Below are positions 23,938 to 63,710 of a stretch of DNA of 64,000 nt, one piece after another. The stretch lies in assembly GCA_022393335.1 (NCBI GenBank), contig JAJEKB010021383.1, positions 1,911,687-1,975,686 of the forward strand, in the 5' to 3' direction. A program made the position numbers and the translations under genes. Each line of letters opens with the position of its first letter. The first letter of the stretch is position 1. The notes beneath the pieces are model-generated. The model worked only from the letters and a program-made list of their open reading frames with translations. It made no database searches and had not been told where the DNA came from. The DNA is from Macrotrachela quadricornifera. Taxonomy: Eukaryota > Rotifera > Eurotatoria > Philodinida > Philodinidae.

Positions 23938-26196
23938 TTATAATTCATTTTTTATACTTTCAACATTTTTCTTATATATAAATAGATCAGGATGATTTTC
24001 AGGTAGTGCATGTTGTCCTATATCCAGAGCTCGTTCACAAAATAAAAGTCCTTTCTTATGGTCACCAATTTTAGAATATACACTACCTATATAACTGTAA
24101 GACAAAGCCAAATCAGGATGATTTTGAGGAAGAATTTTTTGTCGAATTTCAAGTGCTTTGTCATGAGATGAAAGTGCTTTTGAATAATCACCCATATTGT
24201 AATATACCAAACCAATATTACTATAAGAAATAGCCCAATGAGGATGATTTTGAGGAAGAGTTTTTTCGTAGATTTCAAGTGCTTTTTCATGAGATGATAG
24301 TGCTTTTGCATACTCGCCCATGTTGTTACACACCAAACCAATATTATTGTAAGAAATAGCCAAATGAGGATGATATTGAGGAAGAGTTTTTTCGTAGATT
24401 TCAAGTGCTCTTTCATAATATGAAAGTGCTTTTGAGGACTCTCCCATGTTGTCATACACTAAACCAATATTACTGTACGAAGTAGCCAAATGAGGATGAT
24501 TTTGAGGAAGAGTTTTTTGATCAATTTCAAGGGCTTTTTCATAATATAAAAGTGCTTTTGAATACTCGCCTATTTTGTAATACACACTACCAATATTATT
24601 GTAAGATTCAGCCATATCAGGATGATTTTGTGGAAGAGTTTTTTGTCGTATTTCAAGTGCTTTTTCATGATATAAAAGTGCCTTTGAATAGTCTCCCAAG
24701 TTGTCATACGTCAAGCCAACATCATTGTAAGAAGAAGCTAAATCAGAATGTATAGGAGTGAGAATCTTGCGGTTGATTTCAATTGATTTTTCATAATATG
24801 TAAGTGCTTGTGCATATTTTCCTTGGCATCTTTTGATTATTCCGAGCTCATAACAAATATATGCTTCTTCGCGCTCATCATGCTTTTGATCAAGCATGAT
24901 TTCACACACTTGTTGAGCTTTATCAAATTGAGCAAGCTTAATCAATAATTTAATCATTCGATGCCATCCTTTCAGATCTGGAAATGTCTCTTTGCGTATT
25001 TGTTCCGTTAAAGAATGCAAATCAGGATCCTTGTCATTTGTTAGTGTCAATGTTACCTCCCAGAGACGATTATTATTATTTTCCATTTGTTTGATGTCTC
25101 CGATTCGAAACACGGAATGCATAGAAAAGAGAATTTCTTCTTCACCTTCAAAATAACTAACATCACGAACATTGGCAAAAGGTGTTGATGGTATTGATGG
25201 ATCAATTTTCATGACGAACAAAATGCCCACTAAATCAGAAGTTTTCATTGTTTCACGAGTAAACTTAAGAGATACTTGTCGATTCATACTAGTGGATAAA
25301 AAATTATTAAAAGATAATAAACCACCTTTTGTGTTAAATAATTTATCAAAATCCTTTTGCGAGAGACGTTGACCACGATATACGATAAATGTGTTGGAAT
25401 GAGTAAGCCCAGCGTATTGTGTGAAATGAAGTTGCTCAATATGCTTATGTAAATCTTTAACAAAAAAGCCCATATTAACGATGAGATCTGCCTCCATCAT
25501 TCGTAAAACTCGATTCAGCATAGAATAAAGAAAACAGTCATACGTATACCACCATATTGGAAGATGCTTATGGTATTCTTTTTCGAGTTTTTCGATATTT
25601 TTCAGTTCTTTATTATTACCGACAAATTGTTCCCGACAGTAGACAATAAAGTCTTTGACGTGCTGTTGTTCAAAATCAATCGTTAAAAGAATTTCCTTTA
25701 GTATCTGAGTATACATAAAGGATTGGTCAAGTTGATCGAGGTTTTTATTTGTTGCATCATTATTTGTGACTACAAAGCTCATTGAAATGGTGTTTTGATC
25801 ACACTCTTCGGTACCCTTTTTCAGTGCTTCACAGATCGGTTTAATGTCTGTGAAAACACCTTTTACTTTTGGCCAGTTTCTTGCCCATTGCTCATGGCGG
25901 GCTTTATTTCCACAAAAAATAAAGATTGCACTGATCTGTGACATATTATGAACATCAGGTACTGTTGTTTCTCCAAGTACGCCCGATGAAATCATAAATA
26001 TTTTTTCTTCTTTAATGCTGTTGATAAAATTGATACATTCATCTGCAGCAGTGAATGTATGTATTGTATTAATAACTTCTTGTAATTTTGACATTGACTT
26101 ACTCGAGTCCTGATTGTTCGTATCGTTGATGGTGCTATCAAGCCAAATCAACAAAAAATTTTGAATTCGACGAGTACTGCGTTTTTCCTGACTCAT
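23938..26196 (-). CDS. Arginine ADP-ribosyltransferase with C-terminal TPR array (752 aa)
   Basis: Intronless. The start is the ATG at 26196 (MSQEKRSTRR); the frame stays open upstream, but the next start-like codon there is TTG and overlaps a TATA-like element. Residues 1-240 form an N-terminal region common to rotifer proteins of this type. Residues about 265-390 are an R-S-E class mono-ADP-ribosyltransferase domain: YRGQR with R274, FLSTS with S301-T302-S303, and EGEEEILF with the ExE glutamates E352 and E354. These are the NAD-binding and catalytic residues of the arginine-specific ART family, so activity is plausible. Residues 443-752 hold seven 42-residue TPRs of kinesin-light-chain type (ALEI..KTLPQNHP spacing), likely a partner-binding scaffold. 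No signal peptide, so probably cytosolic. The TPR units are also visible as 126-bp DNA repeats. Poly(A) signal AATAAA on the minus strand at 23904-23899. Target protein unknown. Confidence 0.93.
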   Translation of the reverse strand: MSQEKRSTRRIQNFLLIWLDSTINDTNNQDSSKSMSKLQEVINTIHTFTAADECINFINSIKEEKIFMISSGVLGETTVPDVHNMSQISAIFIFCGNKARHEQWARNWPKVKGVFTDIKPICEALKKGTEECDQNTISMSFVVTNNDATNKNLDQLDQSFMYTQILKEILLTIDFEQQHVKDFIVYCREQFVGNNKELKNIEKLEKEYHKHLPIWWYTYDCFLYSMLNRVLRMMEADLIVNMGFFVKDLHKHIEQLHFTQYAGLTHSNTFIVYRGQRLSQKDFDKLFNTKGGLLSFNNFLSTSMNRQVSLKFTRETMKTSDLVGILFVMKIDPSIPSTPFANVRDVSYFEGEEEILFSMHSVFRIGDIKQMENNNNRLWEVTLTLTNDKDPDLHSLTEQIRKETFPDLKGWHRMIKLLIKLAQFDKAQQVCEIMLDQKHDEREEAYICYELGIIKRCQGKYAQALTYYEKSIEINRKILTPIHSDLASSYNDVGLTYDNLGDYSKALLYHEKALEIRQKTLPQNHPDMAESYNNIGSVYYKIGEYSKALLYYEKALEIDQKTLPQNHPHLATSYSNIGLVYDNMGESSKALSYYERALEIYEKTLPQYHPHLAISYNNIGLVCNNMGEYAKALSSHEKALEIYEKTLPQNHPHWAISYSNIGLVYYNMGDYSKALSSHDKALEIRQKILPQNHPDLALSYSYIGSVYSKIGDHKKGLLFCERALDIGQHALPENHPDLFIYKKNVESIKNEL
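24050..24830 (-). repeat. 126-bp direct repeats encoding TPRs
   Basis: Within the ART-TPR gene, about six units of 126 bp (42 codons) remain similar at the DNA level, with the block encoding KTLPQNHP recurring. This implies expansion by in-frame tandem duplication and makes the array prone to copy-number change or collapse in assembly. Confidence 0.8.
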
Positions 26197-26246
26197 ATTG
26201 TATATCAAATGGACGACTGAAATAAATAATGATAAAAAGGCCTTGA

Positions 26247-26253
26247 ATTTATA
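26247..26253 (-). promoter_or_regulatory. TATA-like element of the ART-TPR gene
   Basis: TATAAAT on the minus strand, 51 nt upstream of the ATG at 26196. This is the same ATG spacing as in the gene at 5372, which supports 26196 as the start codon. Confidence 0.4.
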
Positions 26254-26259
26254 CAATGT

Positions 26260-28135
26260 TGAATATATTTCTAGATTCTCTATTTGTTGTTTTTATCGTC
26301 AATCGTCTTTTTCTCTTCTTACTCAAGAGCTTTCGTCCTATTATGTTACCTATATTGATACAAGAAAAATGAAACAACGAAAATAAAAAATACATTAAAA
26401 TTCTGTTTTTTGTTGTCAATAAATGCATGAAATCCGAGAAAAAAAATCAAACACTTTCTTTTCTTCTTTTTCCGTAGTTTTTCAAGAACATTTCTCCCAC
26501 TATTGCAATATGTTGTTATAAATATAGGAATGAAAAGATCACTTTTATCATTTCAAAATACGTTACTAAGCACGAAAGAACAGTTCAAGATGTAATAAAT
26601 GACTACCAAATATAATAAAATCATTATGTTGCCGAGAATATAAAAAGATATTTGAAAAAGAGAAAGATTCTTATTTATTTGTACGAAAACTACGTTCTAT
26701 AAGTTTAAGATTATATCAAATTTTACTGTTTTTGTTATCTATGTATGTGCAGGTAGTAAATGGAAACAAGTAATATCTTTCTTTATTTTGCATTATACTG
26801 TTTTATACGTAAAAATGAAAGTAATACTTTTTTTTTCCGAAGTTTTCTTATTTATAAAAGAAGAATATTGTATTGGAATTTGTACTATTAAGATGACATG
26901 ATTAATATTAAAAATATTCTTTGCGAGTATACTTAATATCAGTATATAAAAAGTAGAAGTATCATCATTTGTTGGTTGATGAAAAGAAGCATGTTAATAT
27001 TTGATTTGGTTGTTTTTATTTTTATCGTTATTCTTATTTCTTCACAATGATGAATGTTACCGTATATGGTTCTCATATTACGATTAGAAAAATTTGTTTT
27101 TTTTTTAATAGAGGTCGAAACGTTGTATCTAAGCAATTTGTCTTAATAGTAGCGTTCATGATGGTTTATTTCATGTTTTAGAAATTATTTTGTAATAGAA
27201 ATATTAAGTGCAGATATGTGAATATTTCTGTAACCTAGATGTTGACTTAATGGTATTTTCCTAAATTATTTTTCTATTTATTGAAATTAGATTTTATGTA
27301 ACTGTTCTAGAAAGCACAATCTGCACTGAAGTATGTTCATCAGACCGATGCTTTTGAAAGTTATTTGAGTTGGCTATTAACTACTATCTTGGCTTTTGAT
27401 GTTTATAAAAAATAGTCTGACTTCATATTCAGACTTAGCATAAAAGGAGGATAGGTAATGAGGTCCTAAATCCACCTATAGGACATTTTCCAAGAAGATC
27501 TCTACCTTTTTATATCAAATGAAAGATCTCATTGAGATAAACAATTTTGTGACGGAACCAATTGTTGTTTAACGTATAACAAAAAAGTTCCAGAAGGACC
27601 AATACTCATGCTGTTTTGAGTTTATTACACTTTCGCGACTAATGTTATGTAGTGCTCCTATGCACATATAGAAAACCACAAATAGAGATATTTTTCATTT
27701 CGATTGGTACACGGTATGATTCTTGAAAAGTAATCATTATCTCTAGCAATTCTTTCAATTACATTTGACAGACATAAGAATTAACCGGTGCGAATTTCGA
27801 CAAGCCAAACGCAATCTCTTTAATAAAGATATGCTATGCAAACTGTACACAGATTGATCACGACTCTGGATAGCATTATTTTACGAAACATATGTTGAAA
27901 ACTAATACTTTTACTAAGACAGAAAAAAGTAAAGAAGAAAACAATGGTTCTCCACAACAGATTAGTAAAATAGATGATTAAAGTTATTGAACAATAAATT
28001 CATCGACTATTGTCTATTTAATGATATTAATGAATTGTTCATCTGACTCAATATTGTTGAGGACTGTTTGTTCTGGTTTGTGAATTCGAAAGCTAAATAG
28101 AGAGAGAATAAAAAAAACGATATGGTCACCATGTA
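26260..28135. other. Intergenic, no gene recognised
   Basis: AT-rich. A short hairpin-like block (GGTCCTAAATCC...CCTATAGGAC) lies near 27451-27485. No supported coding frame. Confidence 0.5.
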
Positions 28136-38520: not shown

Positions 38521-41500
38521 TTAGAAATAATCATTACATGAACATTGTCCATTTGTATGAAAATAATGTATTCGATTTGCATCACGAACAATAATTTCAC
38601 ATTGACGAATATTAGCAATTAATTTAGTTGCTCGATCTATAAAGGAAAAAAATACAAGATAAAAAGCAAATATAATTGAAGAAATTTTTATTTACGACAA
38701 TCGCCACAAATACGAAGATTTTTTGTAATTTGAATTCGTGATACATTTGGATTTCGAAGAAAATTAAATGCAATAGCAATTCTTTCACTATGTCCACACA
38801 GTACTGATGAAATAGTTTCATCTTCATTTAGTGGTCGTGTTACCCAACTTGAATCATATTCATGACCATGTTCGATAAGTTCCCTAGAGATTTTTTCTAA
38901 TTCATTATAAATTTCATTCGATTGAGGATGAGATTGATCATGAGCTTGAAATTGCTAAAGAAATCATTTTATTTTATTTTATTTCTATAGAATATAATTA
39001 TTTATTTAAGACTTACGAATAATTCTCCATTAACCATAGTCCATGTTAAACCAATTTGTTTCTTTACACCTGATTGTATTAATTGTTTTCTAATATTTGA
39101 TGCTTTTTCAATATTACCTGACGATGCATAAACATTAGCAAGAAGAATTGTAGCAGATATTAATGGATCAATTAAATGAGGAAAAATTTTTTTCATACGA
39201 TAATAAATATTTTCTGCTAAATTATTTTTTTTTTCATTTCTAGCACCTGATAACAATGACACTAAAAATAAAATAATACAATGAATTAATATTTGTCTCA
39301 TTTATTCTTTATTATATCTTTTCAATCAAAATACTTTTTTTTTCTTTTATTTGCAGAAACAATGTTTTTATTTAGATATTCATCTATAAAATAAGTTTTT
39401 TTTTCTATAATTAAGTAACAGAAAATCTTTAAATGAATTGAAATACAAAATTGTTTATATGAAAAATTAAAGAATGAATTATTTGATTTGAAAATATATT
39501 ATTAGTAAATAGTTTTTGTTTTATTTAATTAAATATTTGTAAAATATACTGACTGTACATAGGCCATGAAGGTGAATGATCACATTCATATTGATCAATT
39601 ATTTGTTGTGCTTCTTGAAAAAGAGATCCACGACTAAGACAATCAACCTATTCGAATAAACAAATAGAATATTATTAAAAAATACAATGGATTTTTAATA
39701 AACCATTGCACCATAAATTTTTTCTGTTTTAATTTGAATATTTTTAAAAATTGAACGTGCTTGATCAATTAATCCTGAATGTGAACATGCATTTAAAATC
39801 GAAACATAAGTTGATTCTTCAATTAATTCGAATGGAATTTGATGAAAAAGTTCAAGTGCTTCTAAGCCCATTCCATTTAAACCATAAGAATTAACTAAAT
39901 AAAAAAGAAAAAATATTTTTTGAAAAAGAAAATAAATAAATAAATAATACAAACGAACCCATTGTTGTATAACTAATATGATCTAATTGAGTAATATTTT
40001 GAAAAATTTCTTTTGCTTTTTCAATAGAACCAACTTTTCCCTTAATTTCATATTTTGTTTTTTTTTTTAAATGAAAAGAAAAAAAATGATGAAAAAAAAT
40101 GAATTTAAACATACCCACATATCAATTAATGAATTTTGAATTATATGATTAGACAATAAATTTTTTGGCATTTGTTCAACAATTGATTGAGATAGTGAAT
40201 AAATTCCAATTTGAGATAATGCATTGATTGCATGGAGATGAATAATAATATTTGATTGAATATCATCACTTTTCGTTTCATTTATTATATTTAATTTTTT
40301 ACTTTTGATTTTATTATAAAGATTAATTGTTTGATATGGCATCTCATTCTTATTGAAACCTAAAAGAAAACAAAACAAATGTCAATAAAATTCTTTTTAA
40401 TTGTTAAAATATATCGAACCTCTCATCATTGCTCCATACATAGGTAAAACTTTTTTACTTGACATATTAAATAATGATTCAGCACTTTTCACATTACCAC
40501 ATACCATTAATGCATCTATTAAAGATGTTAAAATATAAACATTTGAATGAAACTGTTTTGGTATTTGTTGCCAAACTTTTTTAATTAAATCTAATGCTTC
40601 ATCCGTTCCTAATTGAGCGCAAGCATTAAACAATAATACAAAAATAACTTCATCAGGAGTTTTTATTTGATAAAAAAGTTCAATAGCTTTTTCGATCATT
40701 TGATTTTTAATATAACCTTAAAATAATTTAATCAAATTATTTCAATATATAAAATTAAATTTAACCTTTCATCATTGCTCCATACATTTCTACTGTTTTT
40801 TCTTTTGATCTATCAAATAATAATTGAGCACTTTCGATATCCTCACATTTCAATAATGCATCAATTAAAGATGTTAAAAGATAAGTATTTGAATAAAATT
40901 TTTTTGGTATTTGTTTCCAAATATTTTTAATTAAATTTAATGATTCTTCAGTTTTTAATTGTGCAAAAGCGTTAAATAATAATAGAAAAATCACATCATC
41001 TGGATTTTTTATTTGATAAAAAAGTTCAATTGCTTTTTCAGCCATTCCATTTTTAATATAACCTAAAAATAATTCAATCAAATTATTTCAGTATATAAAA
41101 TTAAATTGAACCTTTCATCATAGCTCCATACATAAATAATGTTTTGTTTGTTGATAAATCGAATAAAGATTCAGCATGTTTTACATTATTACATTGCACT
41201 AAAAAAAAAAGAAATGAAAAATAAAATTGATATGTATACTAATAACTTACTATAGAAGTGGATTAATGATGTTAATATGAAAGAATCAGTTTTAATCCGA
41301 GATGATACAAGATTGTGAATATTTGAACCACGTTGAAAATCACCCATTGCAGTACATGCTTTTAAAGCTTGTGTAATTGCTAAACTTGATAATTGTTGTT
41401 GTTTATTTGTTTCTATAGATTTATCAAATAAATCAAGTGATTCTTTGAATTGTTTTTTCTGGTTTAATATTTTCATTCGATGACCCAAGTTAAAAGATTC

Positions 41501-41572
41501 AATAGTTGATAAATATTTTATATTAACTATAAAAGATTTTAAATAATTGTTTAATAATCTGTTCAACATCAT
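38521..41572 (-). CDS. DYW-type pentatricopeptide repeat protein (PPR-E-DYW), eleven exons (744 aa)
   Basis: Homologue of plant organelle C-to-U RNA-editing factors. Exons in transcription order: 41572-41251, 41198-41112, 41062-40766, 40716-40420, 40359-40115, 40040-39959, 39894-39704, 39647-39554, 39261-39017, 38954-38696, 38636-38521; every phase closes. The N-terminus (MMLNRLLNNYLKSF) is basic and amphipathic, compatible with mitochondrial import. Residues about 35-530 are PPR motifs in P-L-S-like triplets of about 99 residues. Residues about 538-620 match the E region, with a PG-box-like GVKKQIGLTWTMV. The DYW cytidine-deaminase-like domain runs from about 621: SHP at 628-630, HSE with H675 and E677, CGDCH with C703 and C706, IIVRDANRIHYFH, CSC at 738-740, and terminal DYF instead of DYW. 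Zinc and catalytic residues are all present. DYW proteins have been reported in a few non-plant eukaryotes, including bdelloid rotifers; horizontal acquisition is the usual explanation. Editing activity here is inferred. Confidence 0.95.
40420..41111 (-). repeat. 346-bp tandem duplication of an intron plus exon in the PPR gene
   Basis: Intron 2 (49 nt) plus exon 3 (297 nt) and intron 3 (49 nt) plus exon 4 (297 nt) have identical lengths and similar sequence, introns included. The two encoded 99-residue blocks share ELFYQIK, LTSLIDAL and MYGAMM and differ at scattered sites. Unit boundaries are exactly 346 bp apart. Confidence 0.9.
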
Positions 41573-43095: not shown

Positions 43096-45440
43096 TTTTT
43101 TTTTTTTTTTTTTTTTTTTCTTGTTGGCGTTTTTATTGCCCATCGACCGCCCTGGGTCCTATAGGGACATCATACATAACAGTTATTACATAGTAAGCTG
43201 TAGAGAAAAATTTAAAAAAAAAAGAATACAATTGCGAGAGCAGAGAGAATTTTATAATAAGACAAGAAGAGGAGATAATAAGATGGTCTGTAGTAAATCG
43301 CACGTCAAACAATTATTATTAACAACATGTAGAGTATACATCCGGTAGTACTTGATAGTGACACAAGGAGAAGAGCACAGAAAAGAACTAAGAGAAAAAG
43401 CATATACATATACAATATAGATATGAAGAGATAAAATGTGAAGCGACAACCTAGAAGGTTTCAGGAAAATGAAAAAGAAGATTTATTTCATCTGATTTAA
43501 TATCTGGTACTGAATCGATCAGATTGTTGTATGAATACCAGTTAAGACAGGTTGCCCAAACACTATTACGTTCGATAAATCTTTTATTGCGTCTCAATGA
43601 TATAATTATACAAAGGCCACTTAGCCAGTGTTGTCTATGAGAACTTTGTTCGACTTGTTCGAGCAATAATTGCCCGTCTTCAGACTTACTTAGAGCAGAG
43701 AGATAATTTTTCCAATATTTGTGACATTTGATATCCAGAGACTGTTCATTATATAGGATACTAAAAATAAAATCTTCCCAATAAAGACAACGGTACACTC
43801 TTTTCAGACACGTATAATACGTGTGAGAGAGATCTCTTTGTTGTCTAAACGAAAAAAGAGGAAAGATAGCAAATAACCATGTAAATAAAGGGAAGACAAA
43901 AGTGAAGAATAAGGTACGACGAGTTATCATTGAGGAGACATCATTGAATTTGCATTTATTACCTATAATAGTTCTTTGCCGTATCTTTAATAGAGTATGC
44001 CTTAATAAGGTTGACCAACCCAACTTTGTAGATATCCAGTAACCCAAATATTTAAATTGGTTAGTCCAATTAATCACGTGATCTCCACACTTAAGTGTTG
44101 GCATTGGGTTGGGAAAACCAACCGCACGAGCCGTCCACATAGCATTTGTCTTCTTATAATTTATTGGCTGGACAGTCAATATTGAGTAATACTCAAGATT
44201 GTCAAAAAACGCAGCCAATCTCCTTTCCAGGTCCAAGCATTGACCGGAATATTTTAACCCTATCTGCCCAGCCATCACCGCCGCCACATCATCGGCAAAC
44301 AAAAAGCCATAGCCATCGGAAAAGCTTCACTCATATCAGAGTGGTAAGTAATAAAACGCTCGGTGTTAGGCTGGACCCTTGCGGACTCCCCCTTTCAATC
44401 GGAAACCATCTAGAGTTGAGACCTTGTATGTCTATATATCCGCGTCTATTAATTAACCAATTTTTGATCCAAGCGACGTAGGCCGCAGGTATACCTAGCC
44501 TTGATAACTTGCCCACGCAATCATCGAACCAGAGTTGATCAAAGGCGCTGCGGAAATCTACGAATACAGTACAAACAGGTGAGCTATTTGCCATTAATGA
44601 GGAAATATGTTCGATTAAAAGTAACACCCTAGTTTGAAGACGATGATTAGTTCTAAAGCTCGACTGGTTATCTGGTAATAACCCACGAGCATTCAGCACC
44701 CTAAGAAAACGACTTAAAAATAATTTTTCGATTATTTTCAGATGTGAATCCAATAATGAGATGGGTCGAGTGGCATCCGGTGTACAAACTGGATCTTTTT
44801 TTGCCAAGATAACCATTCTAACATCTTTCCATTTGTCAGGCATAAATCCTGTTTGGAAGGACCAATTGAATAGAGGAATCATTAGATGCCAATAATTTTT
44901 AGGGCTGTGGTCAAGTAATACCGGAGATACGCCATGTGCATCACACGATGTCTTTTTCTTTTTTGTTTTTAACACCTGCAGTACCTCCGGGAAAGATACT
45001 AGCGGGATGGTATCATCCTTATTATCCCAAGACACAGGTTGAGCATCGACATATGGATGCGGACGGTACACTTCTGGCTCCGTCTTTAGGGTCTGTAATT
45101 ATTTCTCCAGAAGCAGATATAAGCGCTCGTAGAGTGGCTGATTTATCACAAAATTGTCGTTTGGACTTGTTCCAGAAGGGTGATTCAAATATTCTTCGAC
45201 ATATATAGGTGCTATTTTGATCTTGTGTGTAATGACAAAAAGGGAACACACGTCATAGAAGGATATGTCAGCAAAACCAGAATCTGCATCTTCAATTGCT
45301 TTTTGCCATCGAGAACTAGTTGAGACAAGATCAACTTCAATACGTTACTGAAGCAAGTTGCATTGTGTACTAGATGTACGCATAATTTGAGCGGGTTTGT
45401 GATCGTAGACAGAGTTTGAATTAGTGAATATGGGACCATG
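43096..45440 (-). mobile_element. Non-LTR retrotransposon (LINE), 5'-truncated, frameshifted
   Basis: Reverse transcriptase coded on the minus strand. Reading 45249 to 43451: a pre-RT segment; RPISLLDSHLKIIEKLF and SSFRTNHRLQTRV (RT motifs 1-2 region); VFVDFRSAFDQLW (motif A); GSPQGSSLTPSVL (motif B); then a frame change near 44335-44305; FADDVAAVM (motif C, YADD equivalent); and FKYLGYWIS of the thumb region, ending at a stop at 43451. A second frame change lies near 45070. An A24 tail (T-run at 43096-43119) marks the 3' end. No endonuclease domain is recognisable, so the copy is 5'-truncated and dead. It resembles Jockey/CR1/I-type LINEs by motif spacing; the clade is not decided. The 5' limit near 45440 is approximate. 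Confidence 0.88.
43451..45071 (-). pseudogene. Reverse transcriptase coding region of the LINE
   Basis: Two long frames, 45071-44331 and 44302-43451, hold RT motifs A and B and then motif C onward. One frameshift between the GSPQGSS and FADD motifs separates them, so no intact RT is made. Otherwise few stops occur, pointing to a fairly young copy. Confidence 0.85.
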
Positions 45441-62405: not shown

Positions 62406-63710
62406 ATGAAATTCAAAATAAGTTGTAGGAATAATATAGCAATGGCTGAAAATTCAAGTGCACGTGTTTCTTCTAATGGTCCGTATAATAATTCTAAAGC
62501 TGCAGTTAACCATGTTGGAGCGTGTCTAACAAGTCATCCAAGCTATCAAGCTATTATACCGTCTTCGTCCGATCATCATGGTTTCACTTCTAAAGCATAC
62601 CGAAGAAATAATTCAAGCTACCAAGCTACTGTTGCGTCTTCGACAGGTTACGATACCTCATCAAGCAAACTTTATAGTTCACATGAATCGAGTTCGCAAC
62701 CTACCGATTCATATTCTTCAAGCTATCGTGATTCATCTAGTTATCCTAATAATTCATACAGATCCAGTTCAAAGTTTGCTCCCTCTGTCCACGCAACATC
62801 TAATGCACCGTCATATCACACTTCTAAATGGTCCAATCAGATTTCAAAAACTGAACATTCATTAGCAGCGAAAAATTATGATCTATCGGATACACGTTTG
62901 ACCTTAAAAAGACCGTATTCTCATTCGGCCGCGTTGCACTCAACTGATGATCCTAATCCAGATTTTATTCAACTTTTGCCAGTATCAACACAATTTCCAA
63001 ATTCTAAACTGTTACCTCAATCAATGCAGAACATGTCTATATCAGATCAGTTAGTCAATTTTTATCCAGTACACAAAAAAGGTCCCAATTATCGCCAATA
63101 TTGTGTAGGATGCTTATCCGATGAGGAAAAACCTCGTAGTAAGAGAAATTGTATTTGGAAATACACATCAGGCCCAAATTGGTATTGCACAGAAGTCAAT
63201 ATGGCATTAGCATCAGATTCACCCACACTAAAATCTTATGGATCATACATCAGACAATTAAAATATTCTATTGGTATGTCACAAATGAAATATTTTGGTA
63301 CTGTATTTCGAGGTTAGATTTTTTTATAGTTGTCAAAATATTTCAGTACAACATAGTTTTTCTTTTGAATAGGTGTAGATATGTCACCGAGTGAAATTCA
63401 AGCCTATGAAACGAAAAATATTTTTTTCATTCCAAGTTTCACATCGACATCGAAGTCAATGCCATTTACAGGCAAGAATACATTATTTCACATTAATATT
63501 ACACCAGAATGGTCTAAATTTTGTATGGAGATTCAACCGGAACATACAAAGTATCCTAATGAAGAAGAAATACTATTTTCTTGCTACAATCTCTATCAAT
63601 ATCAAAGAACAGAAAAGTCTAATGGACAACGAATTATAAAGTTAACTTTAATGAATTATGACAAATACTTTGACTATGAAACCAATGCTATCATAAATTA
63701 TTACGCTTAA
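62406..63710 (+). CDS. ADP-ribosyltransferase with Ser/Tyr-rich N-terminus, two exons (414 aa)
   Basis: Exons 62406-63312 and 63373-63710, with a 60-nt intron that splits the Gly codon of the FRG motif. An in-frame ATG at 62442 (context GCAATGG) is an alternative, perhaps better, start. Residues 1-150 are low-complexity, rich in Ser, Tyr, Asn and His (SSYRDSSSYPNNSYRSSS), probably disordered. Residues about 225-260 hold a cysteine/tryptophan-rich patch (YCVGCLSDEEK, NCIWKY, PNWYC). The ART domain has the R-S-E set: VFRG with R302, FTSTS with S327-T328-S329, and YPNEEEILF with ExE at E366 and E368. NAD-dependent arginine mono-ADP-ribosylation is therefore the likely reaction. No TPRs. AATAAA at 63713-63718 overlaps the region just after the stop. 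Targets unknown. Confidence 0.88.

Follow-up and report, generated by a model that had tools for sequence, protein, structure and literature searches.

Plant-type C-to-U editing of organelle transcripts by DYW proteins has been reported from plants and a few protists. In land plants, the DYW factors of the PLS class include OTP86, DYW1, PPR56 and PPR65, and a synthetic counterpart (9kfx) is also known. DYW families are likewise scattered outside plants in Naegleria, Acrasis, Physarum and diplonemids. Editing has been shown in Naegleria and Acrasis, and bdelloid rotifers hold candidate genes for it. For example, Acrasis possesses 12 DYW genes for 2 confirmed sites, and Naegleria was found to group with the rotifers with a support of 0.93 (PMC4202320). 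According to the same source, bdelloid DYW proteins from Adineta ricciae and Philodina roseola have already been published (Schallenberg-Rudinger et al. 2013), and they are also mentioned in PMC5295000.

The gene described here, from the bdelloid Macrotrachela quadricornifera, is an additional member of this published class. It belongs to the same animal group and protein class as the known bdelloid proteins but comes from a different species and shares ~60% identity with them. With the land-plant PLS-DYW factors it has in common the PLS-E1-E2-E+-DYW order, the HxE and CxxC motifs, the zinc sites and the fold. In contrast to them, it carries F in place of the terminal W, a degenerate PG box, glycine at position 5 of its P motifs, and ten introns. 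The surprise is a clade-wide remodelling of a conserved enzyme rather than the presence of the gene. The terminal F, the P-motif glycine and the duplication of triplet exons are described here and go beyond the accounts in the available text of PMC4202320 and PMC5295000.

The window, i.e., the whole 64,000-nucleotide stretch of DNA that was analyzed, spans positions 1,911,687–1,975,686 of a 2.4-Mb contig in the 450-Mb assembly. The coding sequence lies on the minus strand, from window position 41572 to position 38521, and comprises 11 exons and 744 codons. Its ten introns are all GT-AG. The original prediction called them short, which holds for nine of them (49–74 bp) but not for the tenth, at 292 bp. 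As an independent check on the hand splice, a spliced protein-to-DNA aligner of our own was run with a protein of Adineta steineri (P0004) as the query. It returned an identical 744-residue model with identical splice sites and so bore out the splice proposed at the outset, together with its H675-x-E677, C703-G-D-C706-H and CSC (738–740) motifs. P0004 aligns end to end with the window protein (1–744 against 1–729) at 62% identity, and P0019 of Rotaria sordida aligns over essentially its full length at 61%. Altogether, the best 25 BLAST rows, which are annotated Adineta and Rotaria homologues, show 51–62% identity over nearly the full length.

Exon 1 (322 nt, 41251–41572), supported by both the spliced model and the aligner, supplies the start codon, a basic stretch resembling a mitochondrial presequence, the first L motif and the start of an S motif. 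The remainder of that motif and the start of a P motif lie in exon 2 (87 nt, 41112–41198), and an 87-nt exon is also found in paralogues. Exons 3 (40766–41062) and 4 (40420–40716) are 297-nt cassettes of symmetrical phase (1-1), each the length of one P-L-S triplet. They are preceded by intron 2 (41063–41111) and intron 3 (40717–40765), respectively, both of 49 bp. Exon 5 (245 nt, 40115–40359) finishes a P motif, covers an L motif and begins an S motif. The latter is completed in exon 6 (82 nt, 39959–40040) with the pair N,D, followed by the start of P2. The remainder of P2, L2 and the start of S2 occupy exon 7 (191 nt, 39704–39894), and S2 ends in exon 8 (94 nt, 39554–39647), upstream of the 292-bp intron. 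The E1/E2 region is encoded by exon 9 (245 nt, 39017–39261), as is the greater part of the degenerate PG box. Exon 10 (259 nt, 38696–38954) carries E+ and the DYW deaminase with HSE (675–677) and CGDC (703–706). Finally, exon 11 (116 nt including the stop, 38521–38636) provides the remainder of the DYW domain, the zinc-2 CSC (738–740), the terminal DYF and a TAA codon.

The domain content of the product is that of a complete plant-type DYW PPR protein with an E region, as originally predicted, since the PPR, E, E+ and DYW segments all exceed their Pfam cut-offs. The profile search that had been proposed gave a full-length DYW_deaminase match at residues 650–744 (profile positions 1–93 of 93, 104.3 bits, E 3e-30). 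PPR scored 143.9 bits, E_motif 34.4 bits (cut-off 27.3), and E+_motif 29.3 bits (cut-off 24). Both Pfam and a hand parse of the motifs place tandem PPR motifs in PLS triplets. The PG-box-like segment noted earlier, IGLTWTMVNGELFQF, is degenerate: it lacks the P and, by our own count, matches the consensus PGxSWIEVxGxxHxF (taken from PMC4202320) at 5 of its 10 fixed positions. By sequence, the nearest solved DYW structures are the synthetic PPR-DYW protein 9kfx, the OTP86 DYW domain (7o4e) and DYW1 (7w86). An AlphaFold2 model of the homologue P0004, built from a 40-row alignment (pLDDT 89.8, pTM 0.79), forms a helical array, and its best match in the PDB is again 9kfx (E 1.1e-28; TM-score, normalized to target length, 0.71).

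The intact active-site set reported earlier for the window protein withstands comparison with OTP86, as HxE, CxxC and both zinc sites are present. Its zinc-2 site (H707, H730, C738 and C740) corresponds to H924, H947, C954 and C956 of the plant protein. Fifteen other OTP86 residues that were mapped, either named in PMC7611903 or zinc-binding, are all found in the window protein, and the terminal W alone is absent. Conservation is equally marked among homologues. In the best 120 of 1,481 matches, H and E of the HxE motif are kept in 120 of 120, the zinc-1 cysteines in 115 and 118, and the zinc-2 cysteines in all 113 proteins that align there. Of 43 models built from the M. quadricornifera assembly, 38 have E at the glutamate position, two have I and three have no aligned residue. 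H, E and both cysteines occur together in 28 of the 43, and the other models are fragments, have mis-modelled junctions or carry substitutions.

The name-giving terminal tripeptide of the family, D-Y-W, is not strictly invariant. For instance, OTP86 ends in DSW (PMC7611903). W is the constant letter of this variable tripeptide and is replaced here by F, so the window protein, which ends in D-Y-F, is best described as a DYW-family member with a diverged terminus. The replacement is clade-wide: among the best 120 of 1,481 homologues, all bdelloid, 113 end in F, the other seven are models without a DYW end, and none ends in W. F is also the last residue in 37 of the 43 M. quadricornifera models; of the other six, four stop before the terminus and two (L038 and L040) end in CSCEYS. 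Among the 113 non-bdelloid hits listed (those named are from land plants), W is the final residue in 112 and F in none. The terminal W of OTP86, W960, stacks on a zinc-2 ligand, and the W960A mutation lowers OTP86 activity; in vivo, the terminal W is reported to be essential for DYW1 and PpPPR65 (PMC7611903). The terminal F may preserve stacking on the zinc-2 ligand.

Recognition of RNA by plant PPR proteins follows a code in which position 5 and the last residue of each motif form a pair, with position 5 helping to read the RNA base. In a hand parse of the window protein, S motifs mostly carry T,T or T,V, P motifs G,D, and L motifs L, V or H followed by N. Standard pairs were found in two of the 14 motifs parsed: N,D in the S motif at residues 406–436 and T,D in the first L motif. 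Since most code positions are non-canonical, target prediction by the standard code, which the original prediction had proposed, is unsafe and proved unworkable. Among P motifs selected by sequence pattern, 227 of 362 from the 120 listed window-type homologues (best 120 of 1,481) carry G at position 5, versus none of 302 from the 113 listed non-bdelloid proteins, where 287 have N or T. With P-motif position 5 mostly G, sequence-specific RNA binding is uncertain. The glycine signature is ascribed only to the window-type family, because the pattern matched no motif in seven L031-type proteins (see below) and a looser pattern found only 11 P motifs in eight L034-type proteins (7 A, 3 S and 1 G at position 5). 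The idea that code positions are diversifying fastest was contradicted in 19 close homologues from the 120 listed, where P- and S-motif code positions were more conserved than other repeat positions (0.68 vs. 0.57).

Exons 3 and 4, with the introns before them, arose by tandem duplication. The two exons are 81% identical (240/297 nt), and the introns preceding them are 92% identical (45/49). Pairwise comparison of 84 introns (the window gene and 14 chosen paralogues, with paralogue introns of up to 90 bp) gave 3,486 pairs, of which only six, all from the recent duplicates L022 and L055, were as similar. The next-best pair reached 74%, and the median was 56%. As this intron similarity exceeds that of nearly all other pairs, exon 4 with intron 3 is a tandem copy of exon 3 with intron 2. 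Within the duplicated cassettes (40420–41111), the introns appear less diverged than the exons, although the difference (4 of 49 vs. 57 of 297 positions; Fisher p = 0.069) is not significant as a sign of positive selection between them.

Most well-modelled paralogues share a common exon series of 82, 191 or 197, 94, 245–248, 259 and 113 nt. The exon preceding this series is symmetrical (phase 1-1) and 297 or 300 nt long, equivalent to one motif triplet. It is absent in L043, L045, L046 and L047, single in L048, L033, L044 and L039, and double in the window gene. Exons 4 and 5 of the latter (542 nt together) occupy the place of one paralogue exon of ~506–512 nt, which makes the triplet number equal to that of L048. 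Duplication accompanied by loss, or conversion, fits this layout. Intron positions, scored as shared when in the same phase and within three residues, are widely held in common: introns 1–3 occur in 7/9, 7/13 and 13/19 of the M. quadricornifera models covering them, and introns 5–10 in 19/25, 22/26, 26/28, 21/29, 29/36 and 30/38. Intron 4, which precedes exon 5, was found in none of 22. Similar events may have taken place in relatives. A test of 12 homologues from Adineta and Rotaria found four (P0004, P0005, P0056 and P0057) whose two triplets resemble each other (0.76–0.83) more than those of the window protein (0.56–0.63), which suggests recurrent homogenization or duplication. In the other eight, identity between the two triplets was 0.47–0.68.

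A search of the assembly with the DYW profile returned at least 73 matches, which were grouped by hand into ~44 loci including the window gene. Some form near-identical pairs, e.g., L031/L032 and L046/L047, that may be alleles. Selection was compared across domains in eight paralogue pairs hand-picked from close pairs, with codons resampled for the bootstrap. The pooled omega was 0.33 (0.23–0.47) for DYW, 0.67 (0.46–1.08) for E, and 0.66 (0.53–0.83) for PPR, and when bootstrap values were paired at random 5,000 times, the PPR value never fell to or below the DYW value. The pool omits L025/L026 (no differences), L034/L036, L038/L040, L056/L057, L024/L062 and L037/L039 (DYW omega 0.51–0.75). Single pairs are noisy, as in L033/L049 with a DYW omega of ~1.1, and the models L041, L042 and L050 were retained with one stop each. 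The DYW domain is the most constrained part of the protein, and purifying selection acts on it more strongly than on the repeats.

Several subfamilies depart from the window type. L031 and L032 (C4614 and C4447) represent a slow-evolving DYW gene with seven bdelloid hits at 81–86% identity over E-DYW, six of which are 665 residues long and all of which end in F. Identity to non-bdelloid hits (land plants where named) is 36–44% among the best 120 of 864. This conservation makes the L031 type a better first candidate than the window gene for a fixed editing target. In L034 and L036 (C2224 and C4014), HIA replaces HSE while CxxC and CSC are kept behind a basic N-terminus. The catalytic glutamate is absent from all seven relatives examined, six of them from Rotaria and Adineta at 60–73% identity and one at 45%, and the L034 type is a putative conserved pseudo-deaminase. 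L038 and L040 (C563 and C564) are a divergent paralogue with HTE and CNEC motifs, modelled as two long exons. Broken or fragmentary copies also exist (L060 with three stops, L061, L064, and the fragments L052 and L053), which suggests ongoing birth and death in the family.

Other frames in the window include parts of a GMC oxidoreductase and of a transporter, a kinase, NHL repeats, an ADP-ribosyltransferase with TPRs, and a reverse transcriptase. The ADP-ribosyltransferase and its TPR repeats form one long frame (23938–26292), and a weak ART match just under the cut-off lies at 63369–63707. The RVT_1 reverse-transcriptase frame (44331–45098) is located ~2.8 kb upstream of the start of the PPR gene, and the frame adjacent to it on the same strand (43451–44326) matched no Pfam family.

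Homologues of the window protein numbered 1,481, and all 120 listed came from Adineta and Rotaria. No protein among these best 120 matches came close to identity with the window protein. Copies from Adineta, Rotaria and M. quadricornifera intermix in an 80-row tree, on which ground a recent transfer of the window gene was rejected. The phylogeny suggested earlier was carried out in part: in a 71-row tree, a single branch (SH-aLRT 99) separates 35 bdelloid from 36 plant rows, the trees having sampled plants and bdelloids only. The plant rows were the first 35 of 112 W-ending non-bdelloid hits plus OTP86, the bdelloid rows were hand-picked, and the tree came from a short search without bootstrap. 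This topology is compatible with a single old acquisition by bdelloids. The original prediction of horizontal transfer stands with respect to an ultimately horizontal origin, on the published view, but the gene is neither isolated nor fresh, given ~44 loci in this genome and a family shared with Adineta and Rotaria. Its status as a native gene was upheld, with introns common to its own paralogues.

With respect to localization, the first 24 residues of the window protein include three basic and no acidic residues, and 14 of 696 other positions along the protein show a comparable stretch. Among 21 homologues with a comparable start, 16 lack acidic residues in the N-terminal stretch, with a mean of 4.1 basic residues. 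Six L031-type orthologues have 3–4 basic and no acidic residues, and six L034-type proteins have four basic and 0–1 acidic. The N-terminus thus looks mitochondrial, and import of the protein is predicted.

These features are assembled in the following scheme. The bdelloid lineage would have acquired the family ancestor horizontally, from a land-plant-like source, either directly or via a protist. The family would then have gained introns and expanded by duplication, both ahead of the divergence of the sampled genera and afterwards. Within the bdelloid lineage, the DYW motif would have become D-x-F, and window-type P repeats would largely have lost the residue that contributes to base selection. 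The present-day product would be a nuclear-coded PLS-class PPR protein imported into mitochondria, where its repeat array may bind a segment of mitochondrial RNA and the cytidine deaminase at its C-terminus may convert a cytidine just downstream to uridine. That the window gene encodes a mitochondrial C-to-U editing factor is the favoured reading, to which we assign a probability of roughly 60%. Counting against it are the terminal F in place of W, the degenerate PG box and the position-5 glycine. A fuller proposal would have plant-type editing at work in bdelloid mitochondria with a remodelled enzyme, comprising a “DYF” deaminase fixed in the clade ancestor and window-type P repeats with position-5 glycine, in arrays whose length changes by duplication of symmetrical one-triplet exons. 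This is offered tentatively, at somewhat below even odds.

Also weighing against mitochondrial editing, the mitochondrial coding sequence of Rotaria rotatoria contains only 862 C in 10,050 nt, and such C-poor DNA leaves little scope for ~44 DYW loci. A COX1 search of the assembly gave no matches, the control being positive in 8 of 14 genomes, all prokaryotes. A search for the MORF cofactor was uninformative, as it gave no matches and its control likewise gave none anywhere. No bdelloid editing site, nor any search for mitochondrial ones, was found in the accessible text of the literature surveyed, which did not extend to subscription papers. PMC3701536, in its available text, mentions RNA editing in passing only. 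In a study of Adineta vaga trehalose genes, no RNA editing was seen in the cDNA of three broken nuclear gene copies, according to the text available (PMC4498783).

The strongest alternative to mitochondrial editing, though an unlikely one, is that the protein binds mitochondrial RNA for processing, stability or cleavage and retains its DYW domain for structure or regulation, without editing. Such functions are raised in PMC4202320 for the surplus DYW proteins of Acrasis. The clade-wide change from W to F and the degenerate PG box would agree with this, as would the retention of the L034 type despite loss of its glutamate. However, structure alone fails to explain why the glutamate persists in all 120 listed window-type homologues (best 120 of 1,481) in the face of fast change.

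Somewhat less probable still is an active deaminase working mainly outside canonical mitochondrial editing, e.g., on nuclear, cytosolic or transposon RNA, with fast-evolving arrays that reflect changing targets. The ~44 loci, the higher omega of PPR (0.66) than of DYW (0.33), the variable number of triplet cassettes and the C-poor mitochondrial DNA of a relative are in line with this possibility, and Lesch et al. 2022 (PMC9508816) report that nuclear transcripts of human cells can be edited by plant DYW factors. Yet two further subfamilies and most comparable homologues have the mitochondrial-type N-terminus of the window gene, the conservation of code positions (0.68 vs. 0.57) is unlike diversifying specificity, and the A. 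vaga cDNA of three nuclear gene copies showed no editing in the text available (PMC4498783). That the gene is a contaminant or a degenerate, non-functional copy is highly improbable: while some paralogues are broken (e.g., L060 with its stops and the L052/L053 fragments), contamination is excluded by the 2.4-Mb contig, a frame open over 11 exons, shared introns (intron 7 in 26/28 and intron 10 in 30/38 models), the ~44 loci, and end-to-end homologues in Adineta and Rotaria.

For mitochondrial C-to-U editing, the favoured reading, the value of the locus lies in an intact catalytic center combined with rotifer-specific changes, which make plant-like mitochondrial editing in an animal testable. 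Bdelloids hold dozens of candidate editors, with the full catalytic set present in 28 of the 43 modelled here, and the clade-wide W-to-F change and the position-5 glycine are specific, readily testable departures from the plant enzyme. If bdelloids do edit, they would be, to our knowledge, the first animals with plant-type DYW editing machinery. If they do not, a whole family of deaminases would have been retained for some other purpose.
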